A stretch of 38,664 nucleotides of DNA, taken from positions 1 to 38,664 of the IMG/VR virus record IMGVR_UViG_3300031629_001472, one strand, 5' to 3'. This document shows, one piece after another, positions 6,699-32,493 of this stretch. The notes below the pieces were generated by a model, which was given only the letters and a program-made list of their open reading frames with translations, searched no databases and was not told the DNA's origin. The stretch is from a virus. Each line of letters opens with the position of its first letter. Position 1 is the stretch's first letter. Position numbers and translations under genes: made by a program.

Positions 6699-7433
6699 TT
6701 ATATGTTTTTAATTAAATTAGATAACCCTTCAGAAGCTTTTACTGGTCTTCCTGTAGTTGATTTTGATGTTGTAATTTTAGGTTTAGATTCTCCTCCTTG
6801 TTTCTTCCATAAGTCGTATTCTACTTTAGATGCTAAGAAGTCACCTGTATGTAGTACTGAAATTAAAGCAGTCTTTTGTCTAGATGATTCTACGTTACTA
6901 AAGAAGTAAGCTTCGTTAGCTTTATCGAATACTCCATCATGACATCTAATACCTAAGAATTCTTTCTGGTCTACCTGTATACCGAACTTCTGGAGAATGA
7001 ATAAAGATCTGTCTGGTATAAGCATAAAATCTAATTCTGGGTTAAACGTATACATTTCTGAAAGTTTATCTTGTCTCCATTTATCAGTCTGGGGTATATA
7101 GTTTGGTTTTTCACCATCACCCAGCTTACCTAGGTCATGAAATAAGGCTGCAAAAACTAACTGCTCATCAGTATAGTCAATAGTACCTCCCATTTCTTTA
7201 TATAAATTAGATTGCTTAACAGTGTACTGTACTACCCTATTTACATGATCTACATATCCTCCTGCAAAAGCATTATGATACCAAGTTTTACCGCTTGCAG
7301 GCGCCATACAATAGATATCAGACATAGCATTAAGCATATCGAGTACTTTTTGTTTACGTTCACCGGTAATATAGTGGTTTACAATTTTAATGTGTTTATC
7401 CCAATTGGATTGTATCTGTTCTGCATTTAACAT
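6699..7433 (-). CDS. HD-domain phosphohydrolase
   Basis: A 244-residue protein of the HD superfamily of metal-dependent phosphohydrolases. The metal ligands are visible: His63 in GGYVDHVNRVV, His99-Asp100 in LFHDLGKLGDG, with a further conserved histidine/aspartate segment LGIRCHDGVFDKAN. Such enzymes hydrolyse nucleotides, cyclic nucleotides or (p)ppGpp; the substrate cannot be told here. The C-terminus (KPKITTSKSTTGRPVK) is a basic Ser/Thr linker. Transcription starts from a promoter about 135 nt upstream, and the start codon follows the sequence AAAAAGGTTACCT. It is the first gene of the run that includes the sigma factor and the baseplate block. A role in nucleotide pool or alarmone control during infection is inferred. 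Confidence 0.85.
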   Translation of the reverse strand: MLNAEQIQSNWDKHIKIVNHYITGERKQKVLDMLNAMSDIYCMAPASGKTWYHNAFAGGYVDHVNRVVQYTVKQSNLYKEMGGTIDYTDEQLVFAALFHDLGKLGDGEKPNYIPQTDKWRQDKLSEMYTFNPELDFMLIPDRSLFILQKFGIQVDQKEFLGIRCHDGVFDKANEAYFFSNVESSRQKTALISVLHTGDFLASKVEYDLWKKQGGESKPKITTSKSTTGRPVKASEGLSNLIKNI

Positions 7434-7570: not shown

Positions 7571-7601
7571 CGAAGGTATTAAAAAAAATTCGGAATAGCA
7601 A
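7571..7601 (-). promoter_or_regulatory. Bacteroidetes-type promoter (TTG / TACCTTCG)
   Basis: On the minus strand TTG (bases 7601-7599) is followed after exactly 20 bases by TACCTTCG (7578-7571), a variant of the TAnnTTTG -7 box of the Bacteroidetes primary sigma factor. It sits just past the stop of the lipoprotein gene and drives the HD-hydrolase operon. Its TTG forms the loop of the terminator hairpin described next. Confidence 0.55.
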
Positions 7602-7607
7602 CTATTC
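7583..7607 (-). terminator. Terminator of the lipoprotein gene, sharing its loop with a -33 box
   Basis: Minus strand GAATAG-TTG-CTATTC is a perfect 6-bp stem with a 3-base loop, followed by CCGAA-free spacer CGAA and eight T residues. The 5' arm contains the TAG stop codon of the lipoprotein gene and the loop is the TTG of the next promoter. Stem is short and AT-rich, so efficiency is uncertain. Confidence 0.45.
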
Positions 7608-8189
7608 TACAATAAATTTTTCAACATAATGGTCTTTTTCTAATATATCCCCTATATCCCATTTTATTTTCATATATATTGATATAGTATCTCCTATTAA
7701 TTCCGGTGGAAAAGGTCCTACTATTCTTGTAGAAGTTAACCTTTCTCCCTCTTCTGTAAAGTATATTCTTGTGTCATTTTGTACTATCGGCACTATTGTC
7801 CCTGCAAATTGATCTAAATAAACTATCGTATCTCTTATAGGGATAGGAAATCCTTCATAAGTTTGTAAGCCCAAGTATGGACTATAGAGAGGGATAGTGA
7901 AAGCGACGGAGTCACCAAGGACAAAGTATGTATCCGTATCGAATTCTCCTGTAACAACACTCATATCATTATAGTGAGCCCACTCTGGAGTATTATCGGC
8001 ATTTACCTTAAGATTAAAGTAGGGGTAATATTCACCTGTCCAATTTAAAGGTACATGGTAATATCCATTTGCATCTGCTTCTACCGGAAAAACCATCTCC
8101 GCATTAGGGTTAAAATCTGGATATATTGAATCTTTCTCACAACCCCAGATTGTAAACAGTAGAAATATAATTGTGGTTAATCTTAACAT
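7602..8189 (-). CDS. Phage-encoded lipoprotein of unknown function
   Basis: A 195-residue protein with a type II signal peptide: Arg3, hydrophobic segment LTTIIFLLFTIWGC with the lipobox IWGC, so Cys17 should be acylated after cleavage. The mature part is beta-rich, with many Tyr, Pro and Asp residues, and resembles small outer-membrane or periplasmic lipoproteins of Bacteroidetes, though no family is recognised. Start codon overlaps the stop of the upstream gene (ATGTTAA), so it is coupled to it. Known phage lipoproteins often block superinfection by binding a receptor (for example the T5 Llp type); this is a candidate for such a role, by inference only. Confidence 0.75.
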   Translation of the reverse strand: MLRLTTIIFLLFTIWGCEKDSIYPDFNPNAEMVFPVEADANGYYHVPLNWTGEYYPYFNLKVNADNTPEWAHYNDMSVVTGEFDTDTYFVLGDSVAFTIPLYSPYLGLQTYEGFPIPIRDTIVYLDQFAGTIVPIVQNDTRIYFTEEGERLTSTRIVGPFPPELIGDTISIYMKIKWDIGDILEKDHYVEKFIVE

Positions 8190-11323: not shown

Positions 11324-11377
11324 GTTCCGGTATAAAGTTCTTAGGCAACTGTTCCACTATAAAGTTCATAGGCAACT
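11324..11377 (-). repeat. Two tandem 27-bp repeats carrying AGTTGCC -33-like boxes
   Basis: Plus-strand copies 11324-11350 and 11351-11377 share 24 of 27 bases (GTTCC, TATAAAGTTC and AGGCAACT blocks). Read on the minus strand each begins AGTTGCC, the same sequence as the promoter -33 region 75 bases downstream. No TATCTTTA follows at the proper distance, so these are -33-like half-sites. Confidence 0.65.
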
Positions 11378-11872
11378 ATTTGGCTAACTCTCTAGAGAAA
11401 AAAAGAAGGGAGGGAGGTGCGGGCCTTGTCTATCTTCTTATCATTCCATACACTTATTCTTATTATTCTATACACACTTCCTCTCTATATATGTCCATAT
11501 TGTAGTACATTCTCTATGTCTATATGGTCTAATTTAGGGTCTATTGTAGTATATTCTATGATCTTCTAACCAAGGATAGCAACGCTCATCCATATATAAA
11601 TATATACACTCGGTATTATTAATAGGCTTACATGGTAGATGAGTACTATCAATGCATTTAGACGTTAATCTCTCTATGTCTAAGCATAGTCCTCCATTGA
11701 TTGGTATCTATATATCACCAAAGTCTTTAATGTACTCAGACACGGGGTATGAAGTACCCTTTAGGTGATGCTTTTAGCATGACCAGAAGCTTTGCTTGTT
11801 AATATATTAGGCATATATGGTCGTATTTGGTATGGTAGATGGGTGGATTGATTCGAAACATCGTTGAGAATC

Positions 11873-15594: not shown

Positions 15595-16116
15595 TTAAAA
15601 TAAGCTTAATTGAACATTCTCTTTTCTTAAATTCTCTACGTGAAATACGCTATCTACTTTACGAGTAGGTCTAAATTCTTCTCCAGCGTTATCGATTAAT
15701 ATGCCATCTATAACTGTAAATGCATGCTTAGATACTCCTACAATATAAGTTCCTTTAGGATAGTCTTTGATAAAAGACTTAACAGTCTTCTTACGTCTTA
15801 CTATATCTCCATGAAGCTTATACTTATTAGTAATCTCATTTCTGCTTAATACTCTAACATCAAACTCCTTGTTACCAATTTGCATTCCATTATCTTCTAG
15901 CTTCATCATAGTAGTACTTACAAAATTAGTACCTTTCTTATCTTGACGACCGAAGAAGTCTTTAACATAAGCATGAGCTACTTCATAAGTAACATCTGTA
16001 GCTGAAGCTACTGCTCTTACGAAACAATCATCTTTCTCACCTTTAGCTAATGTCGATAACGAGTAACCTTTGATCTCGTTGCTTGCGTACTTGTACGTTC
16101 CAATTAAATTTGTCAT
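15595..16116 (-). CDS. Papain-like cysteine peptidase candidate
   Basis: A 173-residue protein with the pattern of small phage and bacterial papain-fold proteins: Cys31 in KDDCFVRAVASATDVTYEVA at the head of a helix, and His131 in GTYIVGVSKHAFTVIDGILIDN followed by Asp137/Asn143, in the strand-turn order of a Cys-His-Asp/Asn site. Substrate is unknown; such proteins may cleave peptides or isopeptides. I start at MTNLIGTYKY because it has the AAAGGTTATG module; a longer frame would begin inside the promoter. First gene of its transcript. Confidence 0.65.
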   Translation of the reverse strand: MTNLIGTYKYASNEIKGYSLSTLAKGEKDDCFVRAVASATDVTYEVAHAYVKDFFGRQDKKGTNFVSTTMMKLEDNGMQIGNKEFDVRVLSRNEITNKYKLHGDIVRRKKTVKSFIKDYPKGTYIVGVSKHAFTVIDGILIDNAGEEFRPTRKVDSVFHVENLRKENVQLSLF

Positions 16117-16142
16117 AACCTTTATTTGTTTTGATTTATACT

Positions 16143-16173
16143 TAAAGATACGAATTATAACGTTCATAAGCAA
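16143..16173 (-). promoter_or_regulatory. Promoter (TTAGTTGC / TATCTTTA)
   Basis: TTG 16173-16171, 20-base spacer, TATCTTTA 16150-16143, short leader ending AAATAAAGGTTATG. The TTAGTTGC directly continues the T-run of the terminator upstream. Confidence 0.78.
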
Positions 16174-16175
16174 CT

Positions 16176-16201
16176 AAAAAAGGGTTTATTTTGGATAAAC
16201 C
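16176..16201 (-). terminator. Rho-independent terminator fused to the next promoter
   Basis: Minus strand GGTTTAT-CCAAA-ATAAACC, a perfect 7-bp stem, then C and six T. The stop codon of the 58-residue gene lies in the 3' arm, and the T-run flows into the TTAGTTG -33 box. Confidence 0.72.
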
Positions 16202-16362
16202 GACTCCCATCCATCACATAGTATCCTAACTCCTTTAGAGTTCACTACATAGTTTCTATCTTCGTCTTCTATCAATGTTGCTTCTACTAACACTTCTTTA
16301 CCAACTGCTGACATACCTATCATTTTAAATACATCTCCTACTTTCTTTTCGTTTAACCTCAT
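16186..16362 (-). CDS. Small protein, possible SH3-like barrel (58 aa)
   Basis: Frame of 58 codons starting MRLNEKKVGDVFKMIGMSAV and ending GWESVYPK. The strand pattern KVGDVFKMIG, VLVEATLIEDEDRNYVVNSK, GVRILCDGWESVY resembles a small beta-barrel of the KOW/SH3 kind. The upstream gene stops 10 bases before it and a clear terminator overlaps its stop. Function unknown. Confidence 0.65.
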   Translation of the reverse strand: MRLNEKKVGDVFKMIGMSAVGKEVLVEATLIEDEDRNYVVNSKGVRILCDGWESVYPK

Positions 16363-16372
16363 GTCTTATTAT

Positions 16373-16555
16373 TTAATAGTTATAATCTAAACTCCATTTT
16401 AACCACAAAATAGAATTGCATCTTAATTTCTTACTTATTTCTATTGTCGGTATTAAGAATAATGATTCTCCTGAATTCCAATTGAAATCAATCTCTATTC
16501 TCTGCTCTTCTAACCATTGTAGGTAATTCCAAAGCTTTTTAAGTTTCTTAAACAT
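16373..16555 (-). CDS. Unknown small protein (60 aa)
   Basis: A 60-residue Trp- and Lys-rich protein (MFKKLKKLWNYLQWLEEQRI, IEISKKLRCNSILWLKWSL). It stops 10 bases before the next gene and begins one base after the metallopeptidase stop. No family recognised. Confidence 0.58.
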   Translation of the reverse strand: MFKKLKKLWNYLQWLEEQRIEIDFNWNSGESLFLIPTIEISKKLRCNSILWLKWSLDYNY

Positions 16556-16556
16556 A

Positions 16557-16970
16557 TTAGTATTCTATTTGAGTTAATATTTGAATTGTCTCTCCTAATT
16601 TCTCTTCCTCTAATGCTTTAAGCTCATATGGATGATCATCATATTCGTATCCCATATCGTAGTACCTCTTCATCCAAGATGGAGATTGTAAGTAATGCTG
16701 GTATTCATGAAGTATAGTCTTAATAAGATGAAGTTCTGAATTGATATTAGGATAGTATATCCATATAGTATTCATCTCTCTATCGTACTCACCAACTATA
16801 TCTTCACTTCCTTCTCCGTCCGCTATTGGAGTTCCGGAAAGTCTAGCATAGATATTAGTCGCATATTTAATAGAAGGGAATTGCTTCTTATACTTAGACC
16901 TACCATAGTGGTTTTTAATCCAAGGATAAACATTTTCTAATATGGACATAATAGTTAATCTACGCATCAT
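16557..16970 (-). CDS. HExxH zinc metallopeptidase-like protein
   Basis: About 137 residues. The zinc motif LHEYQHYLQSP (His88, Glu89, His92 with this start) is followed by a Tyr/Met helix and the acidic segment HPYELKALEEEKLG, whose Glu could be the third ligand. N-terminal YPWIKNHYGRSKYKKQFPSI and ARLSGTPIADGE lead to the strand MNTIWIYYPN. Such small proteins are common in phages; substrate unknown. Start choice: ATGATG at 16970/16967 overlaps the upstream stop (ATGCGTAG); MSILENVYPW at 16949 is an alternative. Confidence 0.7.
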   Translation of the reverse strand: MMRRLTIMSILENVYPWIKNHYGRSKYKKQFPSIKYATNIYARLSGTPIADGEGSEDIVGEYDREMNTIWIYYPNINSELHLIKTILHEYQHYLQSPSWMKRYYDMGYEYDDHPYELKALEEEKLGETIQILTQIEY

Positions 16971-17133
16971 AATCTTTCTTACAATCTTTTTTATGGTTAA
17001 ACCATCCACCACATTTACATTTAATATAGTGTACAGTAGTAAGGATAATGGGAGAGCCGGCTAACAAGGTTATGACATTTGGATGCCAGTGCTCTCCACA
17101 TATTCCTAATGTATGTTTTATAATTTCTACCAT
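16960..17133 (-). CDS. Small Cys/His-rich membrane-associated protein (57 aa)
   Basis: Frame of 57 codons: MVEIIKHTLGICGEHWHPNV, a hydrophobic segment ITLLAGSPIILTTVHYI, then KCKCGGWFNHKKDCKKDYDA. The two Cys/His clusters (CxxHxH and CxC...HxxxC) could bind a metal. It ends inside the start of the metallopeptidase gene and begins four bases after the upstream stop, which supports it. Function unknown. Confidence 0.62.
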   Translation of the reverse strand: MVEIIKHTLGICGEHWHPNVITLLAGSPIILTTVHYIKCKCGGWFNHKKDCKKDYDA

Positions 17134-17136
17134 AAT

Positions 17137-17343
17137 TTACGAATCGTTTTCTTCATCAGTTATATCTTCTCTTTCTTGTAGTATCTCTAATAACCTTTCA
17201 GGTGTTAGAGTATACCCATCTAACATTTCGTCAGTACCAAACTTTCCACAGTCAGATGAGAAGTCTAGTACTATCTTTCCTTCTATTAATGCTAGGGAAA
17301 CTGCTATAGTAACATCTTTACTATCTTTATATAATAGGCTCAT
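17137..17343 (-). CDS. Small acidic protein (68 aa)
   Basis: A 68-residue protein (MSLLYKDSKDVTIAVSLALI ... LTPERLLEILQEREDITDEE). Last third is an acidic helix. Overlaps the upstream stop as ATGA. Not recognised. Confidence 0.6.
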   Translation of the reverse strand: MSLLYKDSKDVTIAVSLALIEGKIVLDFSSDCGKFGTDEMLDGYTLTPERLLEILQEREDITDEENDS

Positions 17344-17585
17344 ATCTTATACAATGTGTAGTTACTATTTTTTGTTTTAAATTTTACGTGGAAATCTCCC
17401 TTTTCTGTGATTTCGGTTACTTTCGTAGTTAGCCATGTAAATGAATGATTGAATGGAGACATAAGTAACCTATATCCTACTTCAATAAATTTATGTTTTT
17501 TCTTGAATTCTCCATTTATGGGATTATATTCTATCCACAAAACATCATCAGAATACTTGGTTAAATTATCTCGTTCTCTTACCAA
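17340..17585 (-). CDS. Small protein with TTG start (81 aa)
   Basis: An 81-residue beta-rich protein (DNLTKYSDDVLWIEYNPING, WLTTKVTEITEKGDFHVKFK). No ATG exists near the beginning; the first usable codon is TTG, which overlaps the upstream stop as TTGGTAA. Its end overlaps the next ATG by 4 bases. Function unknown. Confidence 0.58.
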   Translation of the reverse strand: MVRERDNLTKYSDDVLWIEYNPINGEFKKKHKFIEVGYRLLMSPFNHSFTWLTTKVTEITEKGDFHVKFKTKNSNYTLYKI

Positions 17586-17707
17586 CTTCCAATTCGTGTT
17601 TTCATTTGGACCATTAACTCCTTAACTAACCCATCTAACGTTAATTTTCCATCACCCTTTACTTCATCGAGGGTTAATAATAGTTTAGGTTGCTTTCCTG
17701 GTATCAT
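17579..17707 (-). CDS. Micropeptide (42 aa)
   Basis: Frame of 42 codons beginning MIPGKQPKLLLTLDEVKGDG and ending QMKTRIGSW. It fills the space between two genes exactly: three bases after the upstream stop and overlapping the next start by 7. Helix LDGLVKELMVQMK near its end. Function unknown. Confidence 0.55.
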   Translation of the reverse strand: MIPGKQPKLLLTLDEVKGDGKLTLDGLVKELMVQMKTRIGSW

Positions 17708-17709
17708 AA

Positions 17710-17949
17710 TTAAAATGGTAAAGGTTTATCTTTTGATTTATCTCTCGGTTTAGAATGATCACTTAGTTTTCTATACCCCAGTGATGCAAATGGTTGCTCT
17801 CCTAATTCTGTGATGGCTGGTCTAGCATTAACATTCAGAACCTCCATCGCATCAATCATCTTATGAGCTTTCTTTCGAGCCATGTAATCATCTTTAGCGT
17901 ATACGTACATATCTACCGACATTACGTATCGTTTTTCTTTCTCTGCCAT
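17710..17949 (-). CDS. Unknown small protein (79 aa)
   Basis: I start at MAEKEKRYVMSVDMYVYAKD, whose ATG overlaps the upstream stop (TAATG), rather than eleven codons earlier. The body is a ferredoxin-like pattern: strand KRYVMSVDMYVYAKD, helix DYMARKKAHKMIDAM, strand VNARPAITELGEQPF, and a Lys-rich tail. Not recognised. Confidence 0.65.
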   Translation of the reverse strand: MAEKEKRYVMSVDMYVYAKDDYMARKKAHKMIDAMEVLNVNARPAITELGEQPFASLGYRKLSDHSKPRDKSKDKPLPF

Positions 17950-18164
17950 TACCAATGTGTTAAGTTTTGTTCTAAGTTCCATTTAACTGTCTCGTCAACC
18001 TGCTCAGGATAGTCTGGTGAGTAATCTTTAAGTTCGTGGATAATTGAATCAGACAAAGCATCTATTCTGTTGCTTGTCATTTCCGGAAAAGTCTCTCCGG
18101 TTAATTGCTTCTTAGCAATCAAGTCTAGTACCTTCTGTACTATTTCGTCTTTGTATACTGTCAT
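17949..18164 (-). CDS. Unknown small acidic protein (71 aa)
   Basis: A 71-residue helical protein (YKDEIVQKVLDLIAKKQLTG, TSNRIDALSDSIIHELKDYS, VDETVKWNLEQNLTHW). Start has the module AAAAGGTTATG. It is first of a run of about ten overlapping genes and lies 430 bases downstream of the nearest promoter. Confidence 0.66.
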   Translation of the reverse strand: MTVYKDEIVQKVLDLIAKKQLTGETFPEMTSNRIDALSDSIIHELKDYSPDYPEQVDETVKWNLEQNLTHW

Positions 18165-18603
18165 AACCTTTTATTTTAATCTTTGTTACTATTTGGGTAA
18201 GGTAAGTAACATTAACCTTTATTCGGGGCAGTGAGGGGGGGTGTCAGGAATCTCTCTGTGATATTGTTTTCGATTCTTGAATTGAATCTCGATTCCTCCA
18301 GCTTATCACATCTGTTCATTTCTTCGCCATTTATGACCTATTGTTCTTAGGTCCCCAAAGTCAAGCCTCATCATCTACTCGCTATTCTCGTCCTGCTCTT
18401 TTTATTCCACCTTAATTTGGTGACAGTTTAGGTACTCACTTCTCAGAATCTAGAGAACTATTGATACTATCTCATCTCATTCGCTACAATTTAACTCTAC
18501 TCCTAAAGGTACTACATTCTCATATCGACCTTTGATCCTAGTAGAAACTCTTTCCTGCTGTATCGTTTAATATTTTAAAGAACTTTAACTTATATCTTAT
18601 ATA
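18165..18603 (-). ncRNA. Long untranslated leader or non-coding RNA
   Basis: From the promoter at 18604-18634 to the next well-supported start there are about 430 bases without a convincing gene. One 35-codon frame (18212-18319, MNRCDKLEESRFNSRIENNI) lacks a start module and is doubtful. Sequence is less AT-rich than its surroundings and holds inverted repeats such as GATTC-AATTCAA-GAATC (minus strand, about 18270) and a run of seven C (18241-18235). A structured leader, an RNA regulator or a decayed gene are all open. Confidence 0.4.
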
Positions 18604-18634
18604 TAAAGATAAGAAATAATACGCATACTTCCAA
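18604..18634 (-). promoter_or_regulatory. Promoter (TTAGTTGG / TATCTTTA)
   Basis: TTG 18634-18632, 20-base spacer, TATCTTTA 18611-18604. Reads into the 430-base leader. Confidence 0.7.
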
Positions 18635-18636
18635 CT

Positions 18637-18657
18637 AAAAGGTGGATTATTTATCCA
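18637..18657 (-). terminator. Weak terminator next to the promoter
   Basis: Minus strand TGGAT-AAATA-ATCCA, then CC and four T, which run into AGTTGG of the next promoter. The stop of the 26-codon frame lies in the 3' side of the loop. Confidence 0.4.
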
Positions 18658-18727
18658 TCCAATTAAGTAATCTATTCATAACAATGTAAAATATTATTAG
18701 AGTGATTACACATTTTACTACAATCAC
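18647..18727 (-). CDS. Possible membrane micropeptide with GTG start (26 aa)
   Basis: GTG shares its G with the TAG stop of the upstream gene (TAGTG), then 25 more codons: a membrane span VIVVKCVITLIIFYIV and a tail MNRLLNWMDK. Junction and composition favour it; length and non-ATG start argue for caution. Confidence 0.35.
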   Translation of the reverse strand: MIVVKCVITLIIFYIVMNRLLNWMDK

Positions 18728-19122
18728 TAATCCAAACCAGAAGTACGGCCTGCATCTCTTTCTTTGTTCATCCAATTACCCTTACGAGTAGTATAAACTT
18801 CTTTATCATTTATAAATTGATCATTGTTAATCTTAACTTTATCATACCAAGGAACTCCTCCTGTATTATCTAGTGTTATATTTACATTACCATATCTCTC
18901 TCTAATTCCGGACTTCCATCTATTTAAAGCTTCTTCATTATGTATTGAAGTACTAGAGTCGTCTGGGTTAGGTAAGTTATAGCCAAACATCATCTTACCG
19001 AATAGTCCGCTTATCATATTGAAAGTTATATCTTCTAGATTAGTTTCAATCTTCTCTCTATTTTGCTCTCCTCTATTAGTAGACTGCAGAGCTTCGTCTA
19101 ATATTGCTTTACTTAATTTCAT
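18727..19122 (-). CDS. Unknown protein (131 aa)
   Basis: A 131-residue protein: helical MKLSKAILDEALQSTNRGEQ, then LEDITFNMISGLFGKMMFGY, and a polar C-terminus with NVNITLDNTGGVPWYDKVKI. No family is recognised. It follows the 257-residue gene by 30 bases and is probably in its operon. Confidence 0.7.
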   Translation of the reverse strand: MKLSKAILDEALQSTNRGEQNREKIETNLEDITFNMISGLFGKMMFGYNLPNPDDSSTSIHNEEALNRWKSGIRERYGNVNITLDNTGGVPWYDKVKINNDQFINDKEVYTTRKGNWMNKERDAGRTSGLD

Positions 19123-19152
19123 TTTATGTGTCTTTTAAATAAATAGTACGTT

Positions 19153-19926
19153 TTACGCTTCAGCTTTGATTACATAATCTCTATACTGCCAAAGTAAATC
19201 ATTTACATTAGACATTCTAACGTTATGAAAAATTGTAGTCTCGTTTATCTCTCCAACTCGGTAAGCCATCGTAAGCTCTAAATCAGCTGATAAGCCAGAC
19301 TTAGTTGTCTTTAATATCTTAGCTTTTTGAATATATCTTTGAGTCCAAGTATGTCTAATATCTATTGTACCTTTCTTCTCTCCATTAAACTCTAACCCTT
19401 TATCTTTAAGTAAGTCTAAAGCTTCTTTCAACTGTACGTCATTAATTTCTTCTCTTAAAGCTTCAAGCTCTCTTCCGATTTTAAATTCTGGTTTTCTATC
19501 TACTACAATGCTTGCTTTAATACTATTAAGCCCAGCTACAATATCATCTTGATGATCAATTAAGATCTCAGCTACTTGTCCAACAGTTCTTAATCTTTCT
19601 AATTCCCAAAGACTATTATCACTCGTAGAGTAAACTGAAGTATTAATGTTCTTTACCTCTCCGGTCTCCCAGTCTTCATTAGTTCTAAGAGTAATTAATT
19701 CTTTCAAATAGGTGTAGTCTTCACGAGCTCTTTGAAATTCGAAAGATGATGCATCATAACCACCGATCGCAATTGTAATCCCTTCTTCAGGAGTAAAGTA
19801 CTCATTGATTAACTTTAAAGCTGCTGCTTTTCTATCCTTAGCCTGCTTTTCAGATTTCTTGTAAGCTAATTGAAGCTCCTCTTTCTTTCTCGAGATAATC
19901 TCGTTGATAATTTCTACTTTTGTCAT
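19153..19926 (-). CDS. Unknown protein with long charged N-terminal helix (257 aa)
   Basis: A 257-residue protein. Residues 1-45 form a Lys/Glu-rich helix or coiled coil (EIINEIISRKKEELQLAYKK). The middle has GITIAIGGYDASSFEFQR and a helix LKELITLRTNEDWE; residues about 150-185 are another coiled-coil-like segment (IGRELEALREEINDVQLKEA), and the end is beta-like (SADLELTMAYRVGEINETTI). No enzyme motif seen. It starts three bases after the previous stop. Confidence 0.75.
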   Translation of the reverse strand: MTKVEIINEIISRKKEELQLAYKKSEKQAKDRKAAALKLINEYFTPEEGITIAIGGYDASSFEFQRAREDYTYLKELITLRTNEDWETGEVKNINTSVYSTSDNSLWELERLRTVGQVAEILIDHQDDIVAGLNSIKASIVVDRKPEFKIGRELEALREEINDVQLKEALDLLKDKGLEFNGEKKGTIDIRHTWTQRYIQKAKILKTTKSGLSADLELTMAYRVGEINETTIFHNVRMSNVNDLLWQYRDYVIKAEA

Positions 19927-19928
19927 AA

Positions 19929-20417
19929 TTATAATGCTGCTAATTGTGTTAGTGATTCAGAGAAATCTACTCCAGCTATTACTGGAGGCAGATCTTTTAT
20001 CTCTACTGAATTCATTACAAAAGCTTTATCTGCCCAAGTCTTAGAATTAACTGCTCTATATTGATTACTATCCATTAGGTTAGTATTATCAAAACAACTG
20101 TTAATAGTTCCTACTTCAAGACCTCTCATGATAGCCTCATCCATAAACTTAACCTTCTTGCCTACTCTAGCAAAGACTGTTAACCAATGGTCAGTTCCAG
20201 CAGGATTAAACTCTACAGTTAGTAAAGCTCCTCTTTTAAATGCGTTAAGTAATCTACCTGGATTCTCACTATACATTTTATTCTCTCTATCAAACTTTAC
20301 TTCATTACAAGTTGGATATCCAGCTCTACATTTAGAAATAAATCTAAATTTACCAGTTCTACCGTCGATGAAGTTTACTGTTCTTAAGTCCTTGATTGTG
20401 TTGATAATTTCTGTCAT
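19929..20417 (-). CDS. Unknown protein (162 aa), first of its operon
   Basis: A 162-residue beta-rich protein (TVNFIDGRTGKFRFISKCRA, VEFNPAGTDHWLTVFARVGK, WADKAFVMNSVEIKDLPP). Not recognised. The start has the module AGAGGTTATG and a promoter 27 bases upstream, so it is well fixed, and it probably leads the 257- and 131-residue genes. Confidence 0.75.
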   Translation of the reverse strand: MTEIINTIKDLRTVNFIDGRTGKFRFISKCRAGYPTCNEVKFDRENKMYSENPGRLLNAFKRGALLTVEFNPAGTDHWLTVFARVGKKVKFMDEAIMRGLEVGTINSCFDNTNLMDSNQYRAVNSKTWADKAFVMNSVEIKDLPPVIAGVDFSESLTQLAAL

Positions 20418-20443
20418 AACCTCTATTTGTTTTTATTTATACT

Positions 20444-20474
20444 TAAAGATACGAAATATTACTCGGGGAGGCAA
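20444..20474 (-). promoter_or_regulatory. Promoter inside a terminator hairpin (AGTTGCC / TATCTTTA)
   Basis: TTG 20474-20472, 20-base spacer, TATCTTTA 20451-20444. The TTG lies in the loop and the spacer begins in the 3' arm of the hairpin at 20461-20487. Confidence 0.75.
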
Positions 20475-20487
20475 CTTTTCCCCGAGT
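20461..20487 (-). terminator. Perfect 8-bp GC-rich hairpin enclosing a -33 box
   Basis: ACTCGGGG (arm), 11-base loop containing AGTTGCC on the minus strand, CCCCGAGT (arm). It follows the 46-residue gene by about a dozen bases. There is no good T-run after it, so it could be a terminator, an mRNA 3'-end stabiliser, or a cruciform operator. Confidence 0.55.
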
Positions 20488-20499
20488 TATTACCGAGAT

Positions 20500-20640
20500 T
20501 TATTCTTGGTCGGTTAAATTTTTATTGTATACTAAGTTGTATATATCGTCGGCGAATTCGGGTGTAATCGAATTAGATTCTAATAGAGATTGAGTAATTT
20601 TTTTGATGTTGTCGTCGGTGTGGTAAATTGGTTGAATCAT
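20500..20640 (-). CDS. Small acidic protein with its own promoter (46 aa)
   Basis: Frame of 46 codons starting MIQPIYHTDDNIKKITQSLL and ending YNKNLTDQE. A good promoter lies 56 bases upstream, and the strong hairpin follows its stop, so it is a complete single-gene unit. Composition is helical and acidic. Small phage proteins made alone from strong promoters are often host-takeover factors; function here is unknown. Confidence 0.62.
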   Translation of the reverse strand: MIQPIYHTDDNIKKITQSLLESNSITPEFADDIYNLVYNKNLTDQE

Positions 20641-20741: not shown

Positions 20742-21455
20742 TTATCCAAATATTTCTACTCTAATATCTTTCATCATTTCAAATCCTAGCTTATCTAAGT
20801 GAAACCTTCCTTCAGAAACCATTCTATCCCAACCACAGAAGTAAACTAATGGCTTATCATCCATCACATGAATATCATTAAGGTAATGCTCATGGACGTG
20901 TCCTTTTTTATATCCTAGTTTTTTCTCTTGAGACAGTACAGGAATATATTCAAAGTTAGGCATTTGTTTAGCTAAGAATTCAAACTCTTTTCTATATAAT
21001 ATATCTTTATGAGTTCGAGTACCGAAGAATAGTTTAATGCTCTTAAATTTTATATCATTATCATATAAGTAATTGACCATTGAACGAAAAGGACTTACTC
21101 CTGATCCAGTAGATACAAACATAATATCTCTATTCATAATGTCTTGAGGTAGTGTAAATATTCCCATAGGTCCTCTATAAAGAAATTCGTCTCCTATCTC
21201 TGCTTCCAAGAATAAGTAATTAGACATATGACCTCCTTCAAGATAAGTTATAACTAGTTCGAAGTTATTACTACCGTCCGGCCATGAAGCAATGGAATAG
21301 TTTCTAACTACTGAGCCATCTACTCCAGGCTTAGCAACTAACTGTAACAATTGCCCGGGTACATATTCTAGTTTCTCATACAAAGGTGATTCAAATATGA
21401 ACCTCCAGTTCTTATCTGTCTCTTTTATAATCTTAGTTAAGATTGCTACATTCAT
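20742..21455 (-). CDS. Ferredoxin/flavodoxin-NADP reductase-like flavoprotein
   Basis: A 237-residue protein with the full FNR plan. FAD domain: PGQLLQL (about 33-39) and the FAD-binding Arg51-x-Tyr-Ser (RNYSIAS), GPMGIF near 95. NAD(P) domain: STGSGVSPFRSM, FFGTR and CGW, ending EIFG; the C-terminus lacks the plant-type Tyr and resembles bacterial Fpr-type enzymes. It would move electrons between NAD(P)H and a ferredoxin or flavodoxin. A phage-encoded electron-transfer partner could feed a ribonucleotide reductase, a radical SAM enzyme or the 2OG oxygenase pool, none of which is proven here. Coupled to the small membrane gene one base upstream. Confidence 0.85.
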   Translation of the reverse strand: MNVAILTKIIKETDKNWRFIFESPLYEKLEYVPGQLLQLVAKPGVDGSVVRNYSIASWPDGSNNFELVITYLEGGHMSNYLFLEAEIGDEFLYRGPMGIFTLPQDIMNRDIMFVSTGSGVSPFRSMVNYLYDNDIKFKSIKLFFGTRTHKDILYRKEFEFLAKQMPNFEYIPVLSQEKKLGYKKGHVHEHYLNDIHVMDDKPLVYFCGWDRMVSEGRFHLDKLGFEMMKDIRVEIFG

Positions 21456-21687: not shown

Positions 21688-21858
21688 TTATATCTTCTCA
21701 GTTAAAATGGTTAATACTAAATATGCAACGATTGCACTTGGTCCTAATAATAAGAAGAATGCTCTCCATATAATCGGGTCTACTTTTGTGTGGTACCCTA
21801 ACCCACCACAAACACCTGTTAGGTATTTGTTTTTCGTACTTCTATAAAATTTTCTCAT
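21688..21858 (-). CDS. PspC-domain mini membrane protein
   Basis: Frame of 56 codons recognised as a stand-alone PspC domain: KYLTGVCGGLGYHTKVDPII is the family core (normally LxGVCGGLAEYxxxDPxxxR), followed by WRAFFLLLGPSAIVAYLVLT as the membrane span and a short end TEKI. PspC is part of the phage-shock response that guards the inner membrane; small PspC proteins are frequent in Bacteroidetes. Start fixed by AAATAAAGGTTATG, the TAA of which ends the upstream gene. A phage copy could tune host envelope stress during infection (inference). Confidence 0.75.
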   Translation of the reverse strand: MRKFYRSTKNKYLTGVCGGLGYHTKVDPIIWRAFFLLLGPSAIVAYLVLTILTEKI

Positions 21859-21863
21859 AACCT

Positions 21864-21998
21864 TTATTTGTTTTTACGTTTGTATTTTTTACAATCTTCT
21901 TTACTTCCTTGAAATACAACTGAATCATCTATAGTGTCTATGACTTGATAAACATCATTGTATTCATATAACCCAACTATTCTTAGTTCCTTTTTCAT
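21864..21998 (-). CDS. Small basic protein (44 aa)
   Basis: Frame of 44 codons: MKKELRIVGLYEYNDVYQVI ... SKEDCKKYKRKNK. Start follows TTAAGGTTATG. Strand pattern LRIVGLYEYNDVYQVIDTID and helix at the end. Its last codons and stop double as the leader of the PspC gene. Confidence 0.6.
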   Translation of the reverse strand: MKKELRIVGLYEYNDVYQVIDTIDDSVVFQGSKEDCKKYKRKNK

Positions 21999-23829: not shown

Positions 23830-24107
23830 ATAAGTTTGTAAAATACAATTCCATAACCTATAATTAGGTTTAAATTTACTGCTACTAAGTTCCATTGCTT
23901 AGCTATCCATACTTGAGGAAGACATAATAATGCTCCAGCTAAATAGGTATATACTCCTATATTATCATAAGGTAGGAGGTAGGGAGACAGCATAATAAAT
24001 GCTGTTCCCATATAACCTACTCTGTTTGCTAATCTCTCTATTGGTGTTAGCTTTCTAGCTTTTACTAATAGGTTGATAAACCTAGTTACTAATTTCTTAC
24101 TCTTCAT
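23826..24107 (-). CDS. Small membrane protein, two to three spans (93 aa)
   Basis: Basic head (MKSKKLVTRFINLLVKARKL), then spans at about 33-48 (MGTAFIMLSPYLLPY) and 53-70 (VYTYLAGALLCLPQVW), and IAVNLN-type third span (NLIIGYGIVFYKLI). QVWIAKQWNLVAVN resembles SemiSWEET/PnuC-like transporters of phages. Overlaps DUF932 gene as TAATG. Confidence 0.68.
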   Translation of the reverse strand: MKSKKLVTRFINLLVKARKLTPIERLANRVGYMGTAFIMLSPYLLPYDNIGVYTYLAGALLCLPQVWIAKQWNLVAVNLNLIIGYGIVFYKLI

Positions 24108-24943
24108 TATATTAATGCTGTTGCTAATTTAAACAATTCTTTATTGACACTTAAGTCCTTTTCAAAAGATTTAATCTTACGTACCTTCCTTACTTTAGCT
24201 CCTTTTAATGCAGCGTGAAACTCTCCTTGAGTAATCTTCTCTTGAACTACGTTAAATACTTTCCAAAGACTATCTCCTTCATCTTCTTTTCTCTTAGGTT
24301 CTAAGATATCTACAATAGTTTCTTCATCATATTCGAACTCCTTAGCTTTATCTGAGCCAATTTTAATACCGGCTCTTACTAGCATTGCATCTACTGCTAA
24401 CTTATTCTTTTCCTCTTCAGTAAGAATTCTATTTCTCATACTGTTTAGTACCTCTACCTTGTTAGGAAGATCTTTAACTGCAAGTGATACAACGTCTCTT
24501 AGCTCGTTAAACGTATACCCTTTATGCTTTATTTTGAAATCAGAAAACTTCTCATCAGCTACAACTAATCCATTCGAACAAACTAGTCTAAAAATACCAA
24601 CTGAGAATTGAAATGACTGTAAACCATCGTGAGAGTTTGTCATAATAATACGTGGGAATGCATTATCTCCATCTGTACTAGTAATTTGGATATCAGGGTT
24701 TTGAAACGATACCATGTGTTTACTAAAGATTGTACTGTCACCTCTTTGCTTTCTTTGTGCAGCAGTTACTGGTTTCCAACCTAGTTTATCTAGATCATCA
24801 ATAATAGTTTCCGTATTAACAAACAGATACTTTCCACTAACATCAGGGTTAGTAGGAGCTTCAGCGAATGCTAATGGACAAACTTCTTTTACTTGCTCTT
24901 TGGTAAGGTAAGAGTCTAAACCTTTTTGAAAATTTTGAATCAT
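24107..24943 (-). CDS. DUF932-like phage/plasmid protein
   Basis: A 278-residue protein matching the DUF932 pattern: LFVNTETIIDDLDKLGW near the start, HMVSFQN, IIMTNSHDGLQSFQFSVGIF, RLVCSNGLVV and the later acidic helices. The family is common on plasmids and phages and is encoded near recombination or replication genes; its function is unknown. It is first of a three-gene unit with a good promoter about 30 bases upstream; its leader ends ACGGTTATAATTATG. Confidence 0.8.
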   Translation of the reverse strand: MIQNFQKGLDSYLTKEQVKEVCPLAFAEAPTNPDVSGKYLFVNTETIIDDLDKLGWKPVTAAQRKQRGDSTIFSKHMVSFQNPDIQITSTDGDNAFPRIIMTNSHDGLQSFQFSVGIFRLVCSNGLVVADEKFSDFKIKHKGYTFNELRDVVSLAVKDLPNKVEVLNSMRNRILTEEEKNKLAVDAMLVRAGIKIGSDKAKEFEYDEETIVDILEPKRKEDEGDSLWKVFNVVQEKITQGEFHAALKGAKVRKVRKIKSFEKDLSVNKELFKLATALI

Positions 24944-25004: not shown

Positions 25005-26195
25005 CTAATTTAGTGACTTTATCCAGTTACTTGAAAATAAATCTGTACCGCTAAAGTACTCGTACATCTTTTCGCCAGGAGATAATATAGGTTTGTAACC
25101 TTTTTTTATTCTATCATCTCTAAAGTAACTATTAACTTTAAGGGCATAGTCTTTTCCAAAGTGTTTTACTATATGACCTATAAGCATAGCTTGTACCCAT
25201 GCTATAGTTTTATTTGATCCTCCTACATGCCAGAATTTAAACTTATCTAAATTCAAATTAGCTTTAAACTTTGATTCGTAAGGAATAGTATGTGACATTG
25301 AATGAGGTTGGTGACAGGAATTACAGTAAGCTTCATGCCAAAATATTAAAGGAAAAGAAGGAAGAGATTCATTAGTAGCTGTAGAATTTTTAAGTTCATT
25401 ATAGAATGAGCATTTGACTGGATCATCTTTAAACAATACGTGAGTATCTATCTTAGTATCTTCTGCTCTAATTTGCCATTCTTGGTATTCTTTTGACATC
25501 GCTTTAAGGTACGTGTGAATACATCCTTGCTCTATAAAACAAGATAGTTCCCAAGGAGCTTGTTTTTCGTAATCTACTATTATACTTTCATAAACCTTTT
25601 CTACTTTCTCTATAACAGCACTGAAAGTTTTTACATCGTTGACCTTTATTATATTCATATTAGGTACTGTAGATGCATCGAAGTGGTGTATTGGAAAGTC
25701 TAATTTGGATAGGTTCTGCTGGTAGTAACTTATAAATCTGTAATAGGCTTGGTTAGCTTGCTGATACCATTCGTCCTTGTTAAGATGGTTAAACATATTA
25801 GGAAGGCTTAAACGTTTCTTCTTTGGTTTCTTCTTTACTATTGGTTGATCTATATGCGAGAATAAAAAAGGTTGTTCCGGAAATGTAGGAGGCTCAATAA
25901 CCATAGAGTCTAAGTCTAAATGTAAAAATGGCTCTGTTTGAGCTTTCATAGCTTTTAGCTTAGGCATTGCAAAAGCTTTAGCTTCTTCTTTAGATAATAC
26001 TTCTGTATCTATATTAGTATATGGAATACCTATTTCATTAAATACCTTTTTACATACTTCATTTGTATAGATATTCGATTCACCATAATGCTTATTAATT
26101 AATAGAGAAGAAAGCATACTAACATACATCTCATCCTTTAGTGGTTGAAATTTATTTGGACTATTATACGGTATGTAACTCTGTATTACTTTCAT
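25005..26195 (-). CDS. Glycosyltransferase-like protein with DLDSM motif
   Basis: A 396-residue protein. N-terminal IQSYIPYNSPNKFQPLKDEM, then TEPFLHLDLDSMVIEPP, a DxD-type metal/nucleotide-sugar site typical of GT-A transferases and of the Bacteroidetes DUF6734-like group. C-terminal half contains FWHEAYCNSCHQPHSMSHTI and the segment KFWHVGGSNKTIAWVQAMLI. No signal peptide. It probably acts in the cytosol on a glycan acceptor. Donor and acceptor are unknown. It is apart from the main glycan operon, overlapping the next gene by 4 bases. Confidence 0.65.
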   Translation of the reverse strand: MKVIQSYIPYNSPNKFQPLKDEMYVSMLSSLLINKHYGESNIYTNEVCKKVFNEIGIPYTNIDTEVLSKEEAKAFAMPKLKAMKAQTEPFLHLDLDSMVIEPPTFPEQPFLFSHIDQPIVKKKPKKKRLSLPNMFNHLNKDEWYQQANQAYYRFISYYQQNLSKLDFPIHHFDASTVPNMNIIKVNDVKTFSAVIEKVEKVYESIIVDYEKQAPWELSCFIEQGCIHTYLKAMSKEYQEWQIRAEDTKIDTHVLFKDDPVKCSFYNELKNSTATNESLPSFPLIFWHEAYCNSCHQPHSMSHTIPYESKFKANLNLDKFKFWHVGGSNKTIAWVQAMLIGHIVKHFGKDYALKVNSYFRDDRIKKGYKPILSPGEKMYEYFSGTDLFSSNWIKSLN

Positions 26196-27005: not shown

Positions 27006-27337
27006 TATTCTCTTGATCCTGATTTCTTTCTAAACTCTAATGACTTAGTGCTATCGATAATCTTTTGAGTATTCTTATAATATACCTCTCTATTAGTTAG
27101 AGACATATAAACTGGTCCATCAGTAAAGTTTACAGTTCTCATAGGAACATCACTAAAAGACATTCCATGCTTTGGTTGCTGTATAGGTTGTCTATATTGT
27201 CTAGGACCATCATAAGATCTAAATACCATAGAAGTTACTCTATGCCATCTATCTAATTTATCCATCCATATTTCTAATACTGCTTCCGTAGGGAAGTCAT
27301 ATCTTAGCTTCTCAGTATTTCCACCTTTTTCTGCCAT
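27005..27337 (-). CDS. Unknown protein (110 aa)
   Basis: A 110-residue protein, basic with beta-like segments (YDFPTEAVLEIWMDKLDRWH, VTSMVFRSYDGPRQYRQP, MRTVNFTDGPVYMSLTNREV). The start has the module AAATAAAGGTTATG, whose TAA is the upstream stop. Not recognised. Confidence 0.66.
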   Translation of the reverse strand: MAEKGGNTEKLRYDFPTEAVLEIWMDKLDRWHRVTSMVFRSYDGPRQYRQPIQQPKHGMSFSDVPMRTVNFTDGPVYMSLTNREVYYKNTQKIIDSTKSLEFRKKSGSRE

Positions 27338-27342
27338 AACCT

Positions 27343-27528
27343 TTATTTTTTTATTGTTATTATATATTCTTGTGTTGATATACCTTCCACTATGGTGTAG
27401 ACCCGGTTTGCCGTTAACCTTGAGATATTATATGCAGGAGCCAATGCGTAGGCGTCTTGTAACGTCAGAATCCTATCGTTTTTAATGTTTGATAAATGTA
27501 CTGTGAACTCGATCTCATTTTTACGCAT
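27343..27528 (-). CDS. Small protein (61 aa)
   Basis: I start at MRKNEIEFTVHLSNIKNDRI because GAAGGTTATG precedes it; a start three codons earlier is possible. Beta-rich (TANRVYTIVEGISTQEYIIT). Promoter about 30 bases upstream. Function unknown. Confidence 0.6.
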   Translation of the reverse strand: MRKNEIEFTVHLSNIKNDRILTLQDAYALAPAYNISRLTANRVYTIVEGISTQEYIITIKK

Positions 27529-27549
27529 AACCTTCATTGTATTTAATTA

Positions 27550-28332
27550 TTACTCTGTAAAGATACGAAGATTATCTGTATGCTCCAACTGTTTATACAT
27601 AATATCTGCTAACATTTTTTGAGTACCTTTGTCAAAATGTTTACCATCAAACCTTCTATACTGATATGCTTTTGTTAACTTAGAAGTAAACGATTGTTGC
27701 ATAACTAAATATGGAATCATCTCCATATAGTATGGATTAGTAGCAGGATTGTATAACTGTGTAGGGTATGAATCTACATGAAAATATAACATCTTACCAC
27801 CTCTATTTTCAATGAAGTTTTTAATAGAGATAATATCTAAAGCTAATTGTTCTAGAGTAACATTTTTAAGTTGTTGTGATCTAGGAGGAGCTTCATATGT
27901 AAGTATGTTACTTGGTTCAGTAATACCTACAAGTACAGTTGCGTTTGATAGATCCATATTAATTGGAGTACCTTTCCAGAAAGGCTCTTTTATAATTCTT
28001 CTGTAAAGATCTTTATTACTTATAGCATCAAAAGATATATTCTCATACTCTATGTTTATTTTATCAGCTAACAACTTACCCCAGCCGAACTTCTCTCTTA
28101 TAGATGTCATTTCATCCTCAGCTGGAGTGCCAATAATTTTAGGAGCCATAGCTTGTACGAATTCCTGAGCTAGTTTAGGTAAATTCTCTTGACCTTGTCT
28201 AATAGTTCTTAACCATGAATGTTGATTAAACTCTATTGGTACTGGACCTATAAATTTATATAGATCAGGCCACTCAGTTCCAAAACCTGCACAATGACTA
28301 TCTCCTAATAATATTAACCTTTTCTTATTCAT
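27550..28332 (-). CDS. SGNH/GDSL-like hydrolase (second copy)
   Basis: A 260-residue protein with the GDSL-type start LILLGDSHCAGFG (Ser12), a middle VLVGITEPSN, and a C-terminal Asp-x-x-His (RRFDGKHFDKG). It shares the fold plan but little sequence with the SGNH hydrolase at 22017-22736. It is two bases from the lysozyme-like gene, so an esterase or acetyl-xylan-like action on peptidoglycan or surface glycan is possible. Its last codons (CTTCGTATCTTTACAG) contain the promoter of the next gene. Confidence 0.72.
   Translation of the reverse strand: MNKKRLILLGDSHCAGFGTEWPDLYKFIGPVPIEFNQHSWLRTIRQGQENLPKLAQEFVQAMAPKIIGTPAEDEMTSIREKFGWGKLLADKINIEYENISFDAISNKDLYRRIIKEPFWKGTPINMDLSNATVLVGITEPSNILTYEAPPRSQQLKNVTLEQLALDIISIKNFIENRGGKMLYFHVDSYPTQLYNPATNPYYMEMIPYLVMQQSFTSKLTKAYQYRRFDGKHFDKGTQKMLADIMYKQLEHTDNLRIFTE
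27558..27588 (-). promoter_or_regulatory. Promoter embedded in the SGNH coding end
   Basis: TTG 27588-27586, 20-base spacer, TATCTTTA 27565-27558. The boxes encode residues LEHTDNLRIFT of the hydrolase, so coding and promoter constraints coincide. Confidence 0.68.
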
Positions 28333-30167: not shown

Positions 30168-30198
30168 TAAATATACGAACATTTAAGTTCATAAGCAA
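30168..30198 (-). promoter_or_regulatory. Promoter (TTAGTTGC / TATATTTA)
   Basis: TTG 30198-30196, 20-base spacer, TATATTTA 30175-30168. Confidence 0.7.
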
Positions 30199-30206
30199 CT
30201 AATAGT

Positions 30207-30617
30207 TTAATTGATTGCCTGTAAAGCAGTCCATACATCATCGACTGTTTTAAAGCTTACGACTTTTTCTTGTTTATCTTTACCTACTTCTATTGTAATT
30301 GTTCCGTCCCAATCAGGATCAGGCAGCAATTGATAAAGATAGCACTGTATTAATGCTTGTTGCTCTTTATTAAAAGCCATTTTAATTAAGTTCTCTATTA
30401 CATCGAAGAACTTATCTTCGTATGCAGTTACATCCATTCCTATTTCATCTTGAAGAAAGTCTCTTCTATCTTCAATCTCTCTAAGACCTTGGATAACTAC
30501 TTTAAAACTTTTTTTATCCATATCTTCTCTGCTGGGTTGTACTTGTTTTATCCTAAACTTAAGAGGATGTCCTATATCATGAAATACTTTTCTGAGTTTT
30601 TTTATTGGTTCCGTCAT
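30207..30617 (-). CDS. Unknown protein (136 aa)
   Basis: A 136-residue charged helical protein (KKLRKVFHDIGHPLKFRIKQ, DVIENLIKMAFNKEQQALIQ, YLYQLLPDPDWDGTITIEVG). The last part resembles a short beta-sheet. Overlaps the upstream gene by 41 bases; a start at residue 33 would avoid it. Not recognised. Confidence 0.66.
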   Translation of the reverse strand: MTEPIKKLRKVFHDIGHPLKFRIKQVQPSREDMDKKSFKVVIQGLREIEDRRDFLQDEIGMDVTAYEDKFFDVIENLIKMAFNKEQQALIQCYLYQLLPDPDWDGTITIEVGKDKQEKVVSFKTVDDVWTALQAIN

Positions 30618-31205: not shown

Positions 31206-31379
31206 CTATCCAAATAGCATTGCTTTACTATTCGTATTGTTTTCGTTTATTACATTCCACTTGGCAACTGCTCTATTTCTAGACCATTGGTCAATTGTCC
31301 ATTGTAATCTGTCTGTTTCGAATGTGACTCTCTCTTTAGAGCCGTCCATCATTTTAAATTCAACTAAGTACTTCTTCAT
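31206..31379 (-). CDS. Small basic protein (57 aa)
   Basis: Frame of 57 codons: MKKYLVEFKMMDGSKERVTF ... WNVINENNTNSKAMLFG. The pattern LVEFKMMDGSKERVTFETDR fits a small beta-hairpin protein. Its start lies in the last 20 bases of the first glycosyltransferase, so it is translationally coupled to the glycan operon. Confidence 0.6.
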   Translation of the reverse strand: MKKYLVEFKMMDGSKERVTFETDRLQWTIDQWSRNRAVAKWNVINENNTNSKAMLFG

Positions 31380-32493
31380 AATATTTTATTATTTCTATTT
31401 TTAAATTACCTAAGGTGAAAGTACCTTTGGACTGCTCGCTTTGTTTTACTATGGCAGCTAATTGCATCAGGTATGTAAAGTCCTGCTGGTTAAATGTCTT
31501 TCCATCTATTGTTATAAATATAGCGTTTTGCTTCTCGTTGTCAAGTGGAAGTAACTTTCGTTTCATATCCATTATGCTAACCTTCTGCTCTTTATCAATA
31601 TACTCTTTATAGTCTAAGTCACTATATAATGTATCACACCAAGGTTCTAATGCTTCTAAGAGCTGTTCGTTACCATTATGTAATATAATTCCTCTATCAA
31701 ACTTAGGATTTATAGATGGGTATTGGTACTCATCATTCTGTATCCAATCCCCCCACTTACGTATGTACTCTTTACGGCAACGTTCCATAGTATCTTTATA
31801 GTCTGAGTTCTCTATACCAACTCCAGCATTCCATTTATGACCTCTACAAGTCATATGGTAACATAAAGCATCTCTAGATTGAATCATTTGATAACCTGCT
31901 TGAATCCATCTGTTAAATATATCAGAGTCTTCATATCCATAAGGAGCAAATCTTTGATCATGTCCTCCAATACTTAAATGATCTTCTTTATATAACATCC
32001 AAGGAGCAAAGATACCTTTAGTAGTAATACCAATTTGCTTATTGCTATGGTCTTCTACAAACTTCTCAAATAGATCCCATTTAAAGTCTTCAGCTTCCAT
32101 ACCAAAGTCTCTTACTATCTTCTCTTTACCGGCAGGATGGATTGGCGGCTCTATTCTAGTAGCACAAACTATACTCAAAGGCTTCATATGCTTTAACATA
32201 TTTTCAAAGTATCCTGGACCTATTATCATATCTGAATGTAATATAGAGACAATAGGAGTATTAGCCATCTTCATACCCTCGTCGTACCAGTATGTATGCC
32301 CACGTCTCTCCCTAGCAATATGAAATGTTAAGTCCTTATTAACTAATGTACCTAACCATTCAGCTGTACCGTCAGAGGATGCATCATCAATTATAATTAT
32401 ATCAACATCTTTAGCATACTTAAGTAAACTACTGTAAGTGTTCTTTAGATGCTCTAATGTATTATATGATGGTATTATTACTGTATGCCGCAT
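31360..32493 (-). CDS. Glycosyltransferase family 2 protein
   Basis: A 377-residue GT-A protein. N-terminal VIIPSYNTLEHLKNTYSSLL and DIIIIDDASSDGTAEWLG are the family start (Asp36-Asp37 for UDP-sugar), SILHSDMIIGPGYF is the metal motif, and APYGYEDSDIFNRWIQAG is the acceptor-side ED motif. Residues after about 290 (HNGNEQLLEALEPWCDTLYS) are extra. Last gene but one of the glycan operon; overlaps the next upstream gene by 16 bases. Confidence 0.85.
   Translation of the reverse strand: MRHTVIIPSYNTLEHLKNTYSSLLKYAKDVDIIIIDDASSDGTAEWLGTLVNKDLTFHIARERRGHTYWYDEGMKMANTPIVSILHSDMIIGPGYFENMLKHMKPLSIVCATRIEPPIHPAGKEKIVRDFGMEAEDFKWDLFEKFVEDHSNKQIGITTKGIFAPWMLYKEDHLSIGGHDQRFAPYGYEDSDIFNRWIQAGYQMIQSRDALCYHMTCRGHKWNAGVGIENSDYKDTMERCRKEYIRKWGDWIQNDEYQYPSINPKFDRGIILHNGNEQLLEALEPWCDTLYSDLDYKEYIDKEQKVSIMDMKRKLLPLDNEKQNAIFITIDGKTFNQQDFTYLMQLAAIVKQSEQSKGTFTLGNLKIEIIKYYEEVLS

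Follow-up and report, generated by a model that had tools for sequence, protein, structure and literature searches.

In Escherichia coli, the terminator of the frd operon overlaps the control region of ampC, so an operon terminator shares DNA with the control region of the next gene. We describe a related arrangement in an IMG/VR phage contig (IMGVR_UViG_3300031629_001472; 38,664 bases, analysed over its whole length and referred to below as the window), which is akin to Flavobacterium phage immuto (Immutovirus, 160 kb). On the minus strand of the window, positions 20461-20487 can form a terminator-like hairpin around the -33 box of the next promoter. We consider it likely that this element, together with about one-sixth of the promoters of the phage family, is a fused terminator-promoter. 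The members of this family are large viruses of Flavobacterium-type bacteria. While frd/ampC is a single chromosomal case, in the phages the -33 box is part of the overlap, and the arrangement is seen at many junctions of unlike sequence.

The phage elements share with intrinsic terminators a GC-containing stem, a short loop, a T-rich tail on the sense strand, G.U pairs and a position after the stop codon. They differ in that stem, loop or tail also serves the next promoter as its -33 box and spacer. For Bacteroidota sigma-A promoters, a start-site map of Flavobacterium psychrophilum gives TAnnTTTG as the -7 consensus (PMC9723704). The phage promoters resemble that type in having a -33 TTG and a TAnnTTT -7 box, but their spacing is fixed at 20, their -7 box is mostly TATCTTTA rather than TAnnTTTG, and about one-sixth of their cores can be folded as RNA hairpins. 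Single-molecule work has shown that a bacterial polymerase can, after intrinsic termination, remain on the DNA and restart nearby (PMC6978380, PMC6978322; RNA-seq support in PMC6978322). The phage arrangement might likewise permit re-initiation by a polymerase that had terminated on a promoter. The parts are known; the nesting of a terminator in a promoter as a recurring design appears to be undescribed in the open-access literature searched.

Promoter type

The promoters of the minus-strand genes of the window have the pattern GTTG-N20-TATCTTTA, which is of the Bacteroidota sigma-A type, and GTTG-N20-TAT(C/A)TTT is present at nine minus-strand sites. Related contigs (n = 80) were fetched. In these loci and the window, GTTG-N20-TATCTTT has 168 matches at spacing 20, compared to 0-17 at each other spacing between 14 and 26. 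A position weight matrix (PWM), built without the inner spacer and used with a cut-off score of at least 14, detected 15-41 promoters per relative contig versus 0-1 in the reversed-sequence control. The promoter motif itself is beyond doubt and, judged by the -33 TTG and the -7 TAnnTTT at fixed spacing, fits the Bacteroidota sigma-A type in the window and the family. Neither Cellulophaga phage phi14:2 nor Flavobacterium phage FCL-2 has this promoter type in its first 50 kb.

Nine relative contigs (114-167 kb) were read over most of their length in pieces of 20 kb. The family set consists of 428 non-redundant promoters from related contigs. All fold energies are from single-sequence folds, and open reading frames (ORFs) in the relatives were called mechanically and are crude.

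Fused hairpins in the window and in the phage family

The first-pass annotation of the window had listed four hairpins at gene junctions, at 7571-7607, 16176-16201, 18637-18657 and 20461-20487; all four are present, on the minus strand (Table 1). Only that at 20461-20487 is clearly above chance. It has a 9 bp stem with a minimum free energy of -16.0 kcal/mol (P about 0.005 when compared to family spacers), its loop holds the GTTG, and it begins 12 nt past the stop codon of the upstream ORF (20500).

Strong folding recurs across the family. At a threshold of -8 kcal/mol or below, 76 of the 428 promoters fold, while shuffled sequences in which the -33 box was kept gave 18.4 (maximum 23); at -10 kcal/mol or below, the corresponding figures are 59/428 and 6.4. 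A dyad score of at least 20 was reached by 35 promoters, compared to 4.3 after the upstream and spacer halves had been swapped between promoters. With a folding window of 30 nt, the most stable position around the promoter is +4 to +10 relative to the G of GTTG, rather than the stretch immediately ahead of it; the hairpin peak coincides exactly with the -33 box and spacer.

The hairpins in the promoter core take three forms. They may lie wholly in the spacer (13 observed versus 0.95 in the control), as in GTTGCCTC-TTCG-GAGGC-TTCTTC-TTATCTTT. They may have GTTG in the loop, as in AGGGAATTAG-TTG-CTAGTTCCCT-TTCTTTTACC from immuto, where the box spans the loop and the stem apex. Alternatively, GTTG is in the stem, as in AAAAGAGTTGC-TAGC-GCAGCTCTTTTTTCG. 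Examples of fused elements in immuto are those at 68714, 69173 and 70242. The distance from the stop codon to the -33 box has a median of 17 nt in fused promoters and of 4 nt in plain ones, a difference that would fit a need for the 5' arm to stay out of reach of the ribosome.

Turnover at orthologous junctions

For comparison between relatives, promoters were grouped by the protein which they precede. Before orthologous genes, changes in the -33 box are accompanied by changes in the sequence with which it pairs (e.g., AGTTG/CAACT and GCTTG/CAGGC). Proteins beginning with MYYKFNKE are preceded by GCTTGC/GCAGGC, GGCTTG/CAAGTC or GAGTTG/CAACTC; here it is the first base of the box that is altered in step with its partner. 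The compensatory change which had been proposed as a check is thus seen for the fused class; it is seen neither for the junctions related to 7571-7607 (28 junctions) nor for the rare class in which a T run abuts the -33 box.

Before proteins beginning with MIVENLL and MSKEKTF, the hairpin classes replace each other. Orthologues of the gene at 19929-20417 are preceded by ACTCGGGGA/TCCCCGAGT in the window, by AGGGAATTAG/CTAGTTCCCT in immuto, by GCCTC/GAGGC elsewhere and by no hairpin in others. As arms before orthologues are unlike, though self-complementary, or missing, the trait is gained and lost, and the arms are free to change.

Interpretation and alternative explanations

The reading which we consider likely is the following. 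Directly downstream of its stop codon, the upstream transcript would form a hairpin with a U-rich tract behind it, and would be released at this tract, some 5-25 nt ahead of the next start site. The same DNA would provide the -33 box and the spacer of a host sigma-A-type promoter for the next gene; GTTG would be located within the loop, form part of the stem or immediately precede a spacer-only stem, with the T-rich tract towards the -7 box. Release so shortly before the next start would insulate the transcription units without extra bases. That the fused hairpins terminate transcription is what we infer from their sequence features.

Several observations weigh against this reading. About 80% of the promoters are without a strong hairpin. 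The hairpin is often lost at orthologous junctions, and most rows of an 18-row cluster are weaker than -8 kcal/mol. The element at 20461-20487 is followed by only a modest T tail (AATATTTCG). In the largest set, where ORF calls are crude, there is no discrimination by the orientation of the upstream gene, fused hairpins being found in 69/389 co-directional and 4/25 divergent promoters. Furthermore, hairpins for RNA processing or for protection of 3' ends could look alike.

If transcripts read through the junction, the hairpin might not be a terminator but serve in processing, for instance as a substrate of RNase III, or protect a 3' end; an RNA-strand signature by itself does not specify termination. 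We nevertheless regard this explanation as unlikely. A T-rich tail directly follows the stem: the 8 nt after a GC stem hold on average 5.2 T, compared to 3.98 at matched offsets (p = 7e-9). In addition, the stems are short and closed by tight tetraloops or hexaloops, as is usual in intrinsic terminators, and a promoter immediately downstream makes read-through needless.

The inverted repeats might instead act as DNA, either as an operator bound by a phage or host regulator or, as the first-pass annotation had suggested, as a cruciform which hides the -33 box; the dyads are indeed centred on the -33 box, a possible site of action for a repressor. If the dyad functioned as DNA, G.T mismatches should be as acceptable as A.C mismatches, and the mismatch scan scored both alike. 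Outside the -33 box, however, the stems have 21 G.T and only 1 A.C, compared to about 4 and 5 in half-swapped sequences. A further 40 G.T at the -33 box itself were left out of this count because GTTG cannot give A.C. The sense strand also folds better than the antisense strand (-5.22 versus -3.74, Wilcoxon p = 4e-9; in control segments the difference has the same sign but is smaller). Taken together, the mismatch asymmetry and the better fold of the sense strand argue for selection on sense-strand RNA. Moreover, the T tail is on one side, and the arms vary between promoters, unlike the operator of a single protein; neither symmetric mismatch tolerance nor shared operator arms were found. We thus consider an operator or a cruciform very unlikely, and an RNA hairpin of the upstream transcript alone does not cover the -33 box in duplex DNA.

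That AT-rich DNA and the partly palindromic -33 consensus (TAGTTGCTA) yield such hairpins by chance suits 7571-7607 and the weak stem at 18637-18657, which shows no sign of more, but is very unlikely for the class as a whole, since the half-swap and shuffle controls keep both composition and -33 box, but their strong hairpins are 4- to 8-fold fewer than those observed.

Turning again to the fused terminator-promoter, it is conceivable that its two functions are coupled, because polymerase can be retained on the DNA after termination. An influence of the terminating polymerase on the next initiation, or the reverse, is speculative; it might take the form of occlusion, a roadblock or re-initiation. 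The elements might be relay points, where a polymerase terminating in the spacer stays on the next promoter and re-initiates, or where a waiting polymerase helps to stop the incoming one; we consider this doubtful. If true, neighbouring phage genes would be coupled without read-through.

With respect to gene orientation, a first small set had fused hairpins in 30/102 co-directional versus 1/15 divergent promoters. This trend failed in the larger set described above; the two sets thus conflict, and we do not claim a co-directional rule.

The remaining structures of the window

Stop codon, terminator and promoter had been described as packed into about 40 bases at each of the four junctions. This holds for 7571-7607 and 16176-16201 and nearly so for 20461-20487, where the stop is at 20500. 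For 18637-18657 it applies only if a 42-codon ORF with a TTG start (18647-18775) is real, in which case the upstream stop is within the hairpin. The placement of the -33 box in the loop of a fused terminator-like hairpin is borne out at 20461-20487 and recurs in the family, while 7571-7607 is at chance level. A T run leading straight into the -33 box is terminator-like at 16176-16201 and weak at 18637-18657, and this class is rare (T run of at least 4 against the -33 box in 7/428 family promoters).

Table 1. Minus-strand features at the four junctions of the window
Feature	Position	Strand	Evidence and details
Fused terminator-like hairpin	20461..20487	-	5' arm ACTCGGGGA (20487-20479), loop with -33 box, 3' arm TCCCCGAGT (20469-20461)
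Promoter for gene 19929-20417	20445..20475	-	GTTG (20475-20472), N20, TATCTTT (20451-20445); strict consensus, PWM 35.5
Upstream ORF, 46 amino acids, putative gene	20500..20640	-	ORF list
Gene downstream of fused element, 162 amino acids	19929..20417	-	48% identical to immuto protein at 68774-69148
Terminator-like hairpin GGTTTA..TAAACC, upstream of -33 box	16183..16201	-	Sequence, folds; -5.3 kcal/mol
T6 run abutting AGTTG	16176..16181	-	Sequence
Promoter GTTG-N20-TATCTTT for gene 15595-16173	16144..16174	-	PWM 32.7
Weak 5 bp hairpin TGGAT/ATCCA, then CCTTTT	18643..18657	-	Folds
Promoter GTTG-N20-TATCTTT ahead of ORF-less stretch	18605..18635	-	PWM 26.0
6 bp AT-rich hairpin GAATAG-TTG-CTATTC	7593..7607	-	-3.4 kcal/mol; T8 follows at 7588-7581
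Promoter for gene 6699-7433	7571..7602	-	GTTG (7602-7599), N20, TACCTTCG (7578-7571)

The hairpin and T6 run at 16176-16201 are a possible terminator, but the stop codon TAA (16188-16186) is inside the 3' arm. Among family promoters, upstream 30-mers folding at -5 kcal/mol or below are in mild excess (25 versus 11). In one relative (L203), a tRNA-like gene, recognized by eye, directly precedes the promoter orthologous to that at 16174.

At 18637-18657 and 7571-7607 the hairpins are weak or no better than expected by chance. That at 7571-7607 is equalled by a random family spacer 46% of the time (half-swap P = 0.46), and no excess pairing was found at 28 distinct orthologous junctions. Many orthologues keep GTTG and a -7-like box at the place matching 7571-7602. 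TAG (7604-7602), the stop codon of the gene at 7602-8189, lies within the 7593-7607 hairpin, and its G is also the first base of the -33 GTTG that belongs to the next promoter. In many orthologues the gene end and the -33 box are kept together.

The promoter at 18635 is followed by about 445 nt without an ORF (18165-18610, minus strand), possibly a non-coding RNA or a long leader. This stretch had no Rfam match, and its only match among the relatives, of 32 nt, is in a single contig (L010).

Occurrence beyond the family and significance

A comparable element was found in Bacteroides phage crAss001, which, unlike the immuto-type family, belongs to another order (Crassvirales) and is one clear case in a small set. 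At the gp26/gp27 junction (25019-25068), TTG-N20-TAGGTTTG is present, a long stem (-16.7 kcal/mol) encloses the -33 box, and a T tail follows. As this element has the same design, the design may extend beyond the immuto-type family. Near-identical copies of the crAss001 element are present in other crAss-like phages.

Promoters and terminators are normally handled as separate parts, and this phage family shows the extent to which their codes can overlap. Finders which treat such stretches as promoter or terminator alone would miss half of the function. The fused elements would be natural bifunctional parts for Bacteroidota genetics and would allow a clean in vivo test of the coupling between termination and re-initiation.

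Further features of the contig

Nearly all long ORFs of the window are on the minus strand, and a DUF932 protein (24107-24943) has 68% identity to its immuto counterpart. No viral relatives of the protein at 19153-19926 were found in a first protein search. An Rfam scan of the window gave nothing credible and a tRNA search of the window found none. On the host side, the sole genome match was one contig of a metagenome bin, which resembles phage carry-over; the family of this bin is without the promoter.

AAGTTC(A/T)TA(G/A)GCAACT blocks recur in the window (11335-11387 and 30185-30210); two of them, 27 bp apart, contain on the minus strand an AGTTGC that resembles the -33 box. Several genes have similar leaders (minus strand, ..AAACAAATAAAGGTTATG; 16114-16142, 20415-20443, 21856-21884, 27335-27363 and 27526-27554), in which AAAGG resembles a Shine-Dalgarno sequence, although Bacteroidota are described as mostly without such sites (PMC6847099).

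The phage contig also carries a ferredoxin-reductase-like protein with FAD and NAD domains (20742-21455) and a run of glycosyltransferase and polysaccharide pyruvyl transferase genes (31360-38215).

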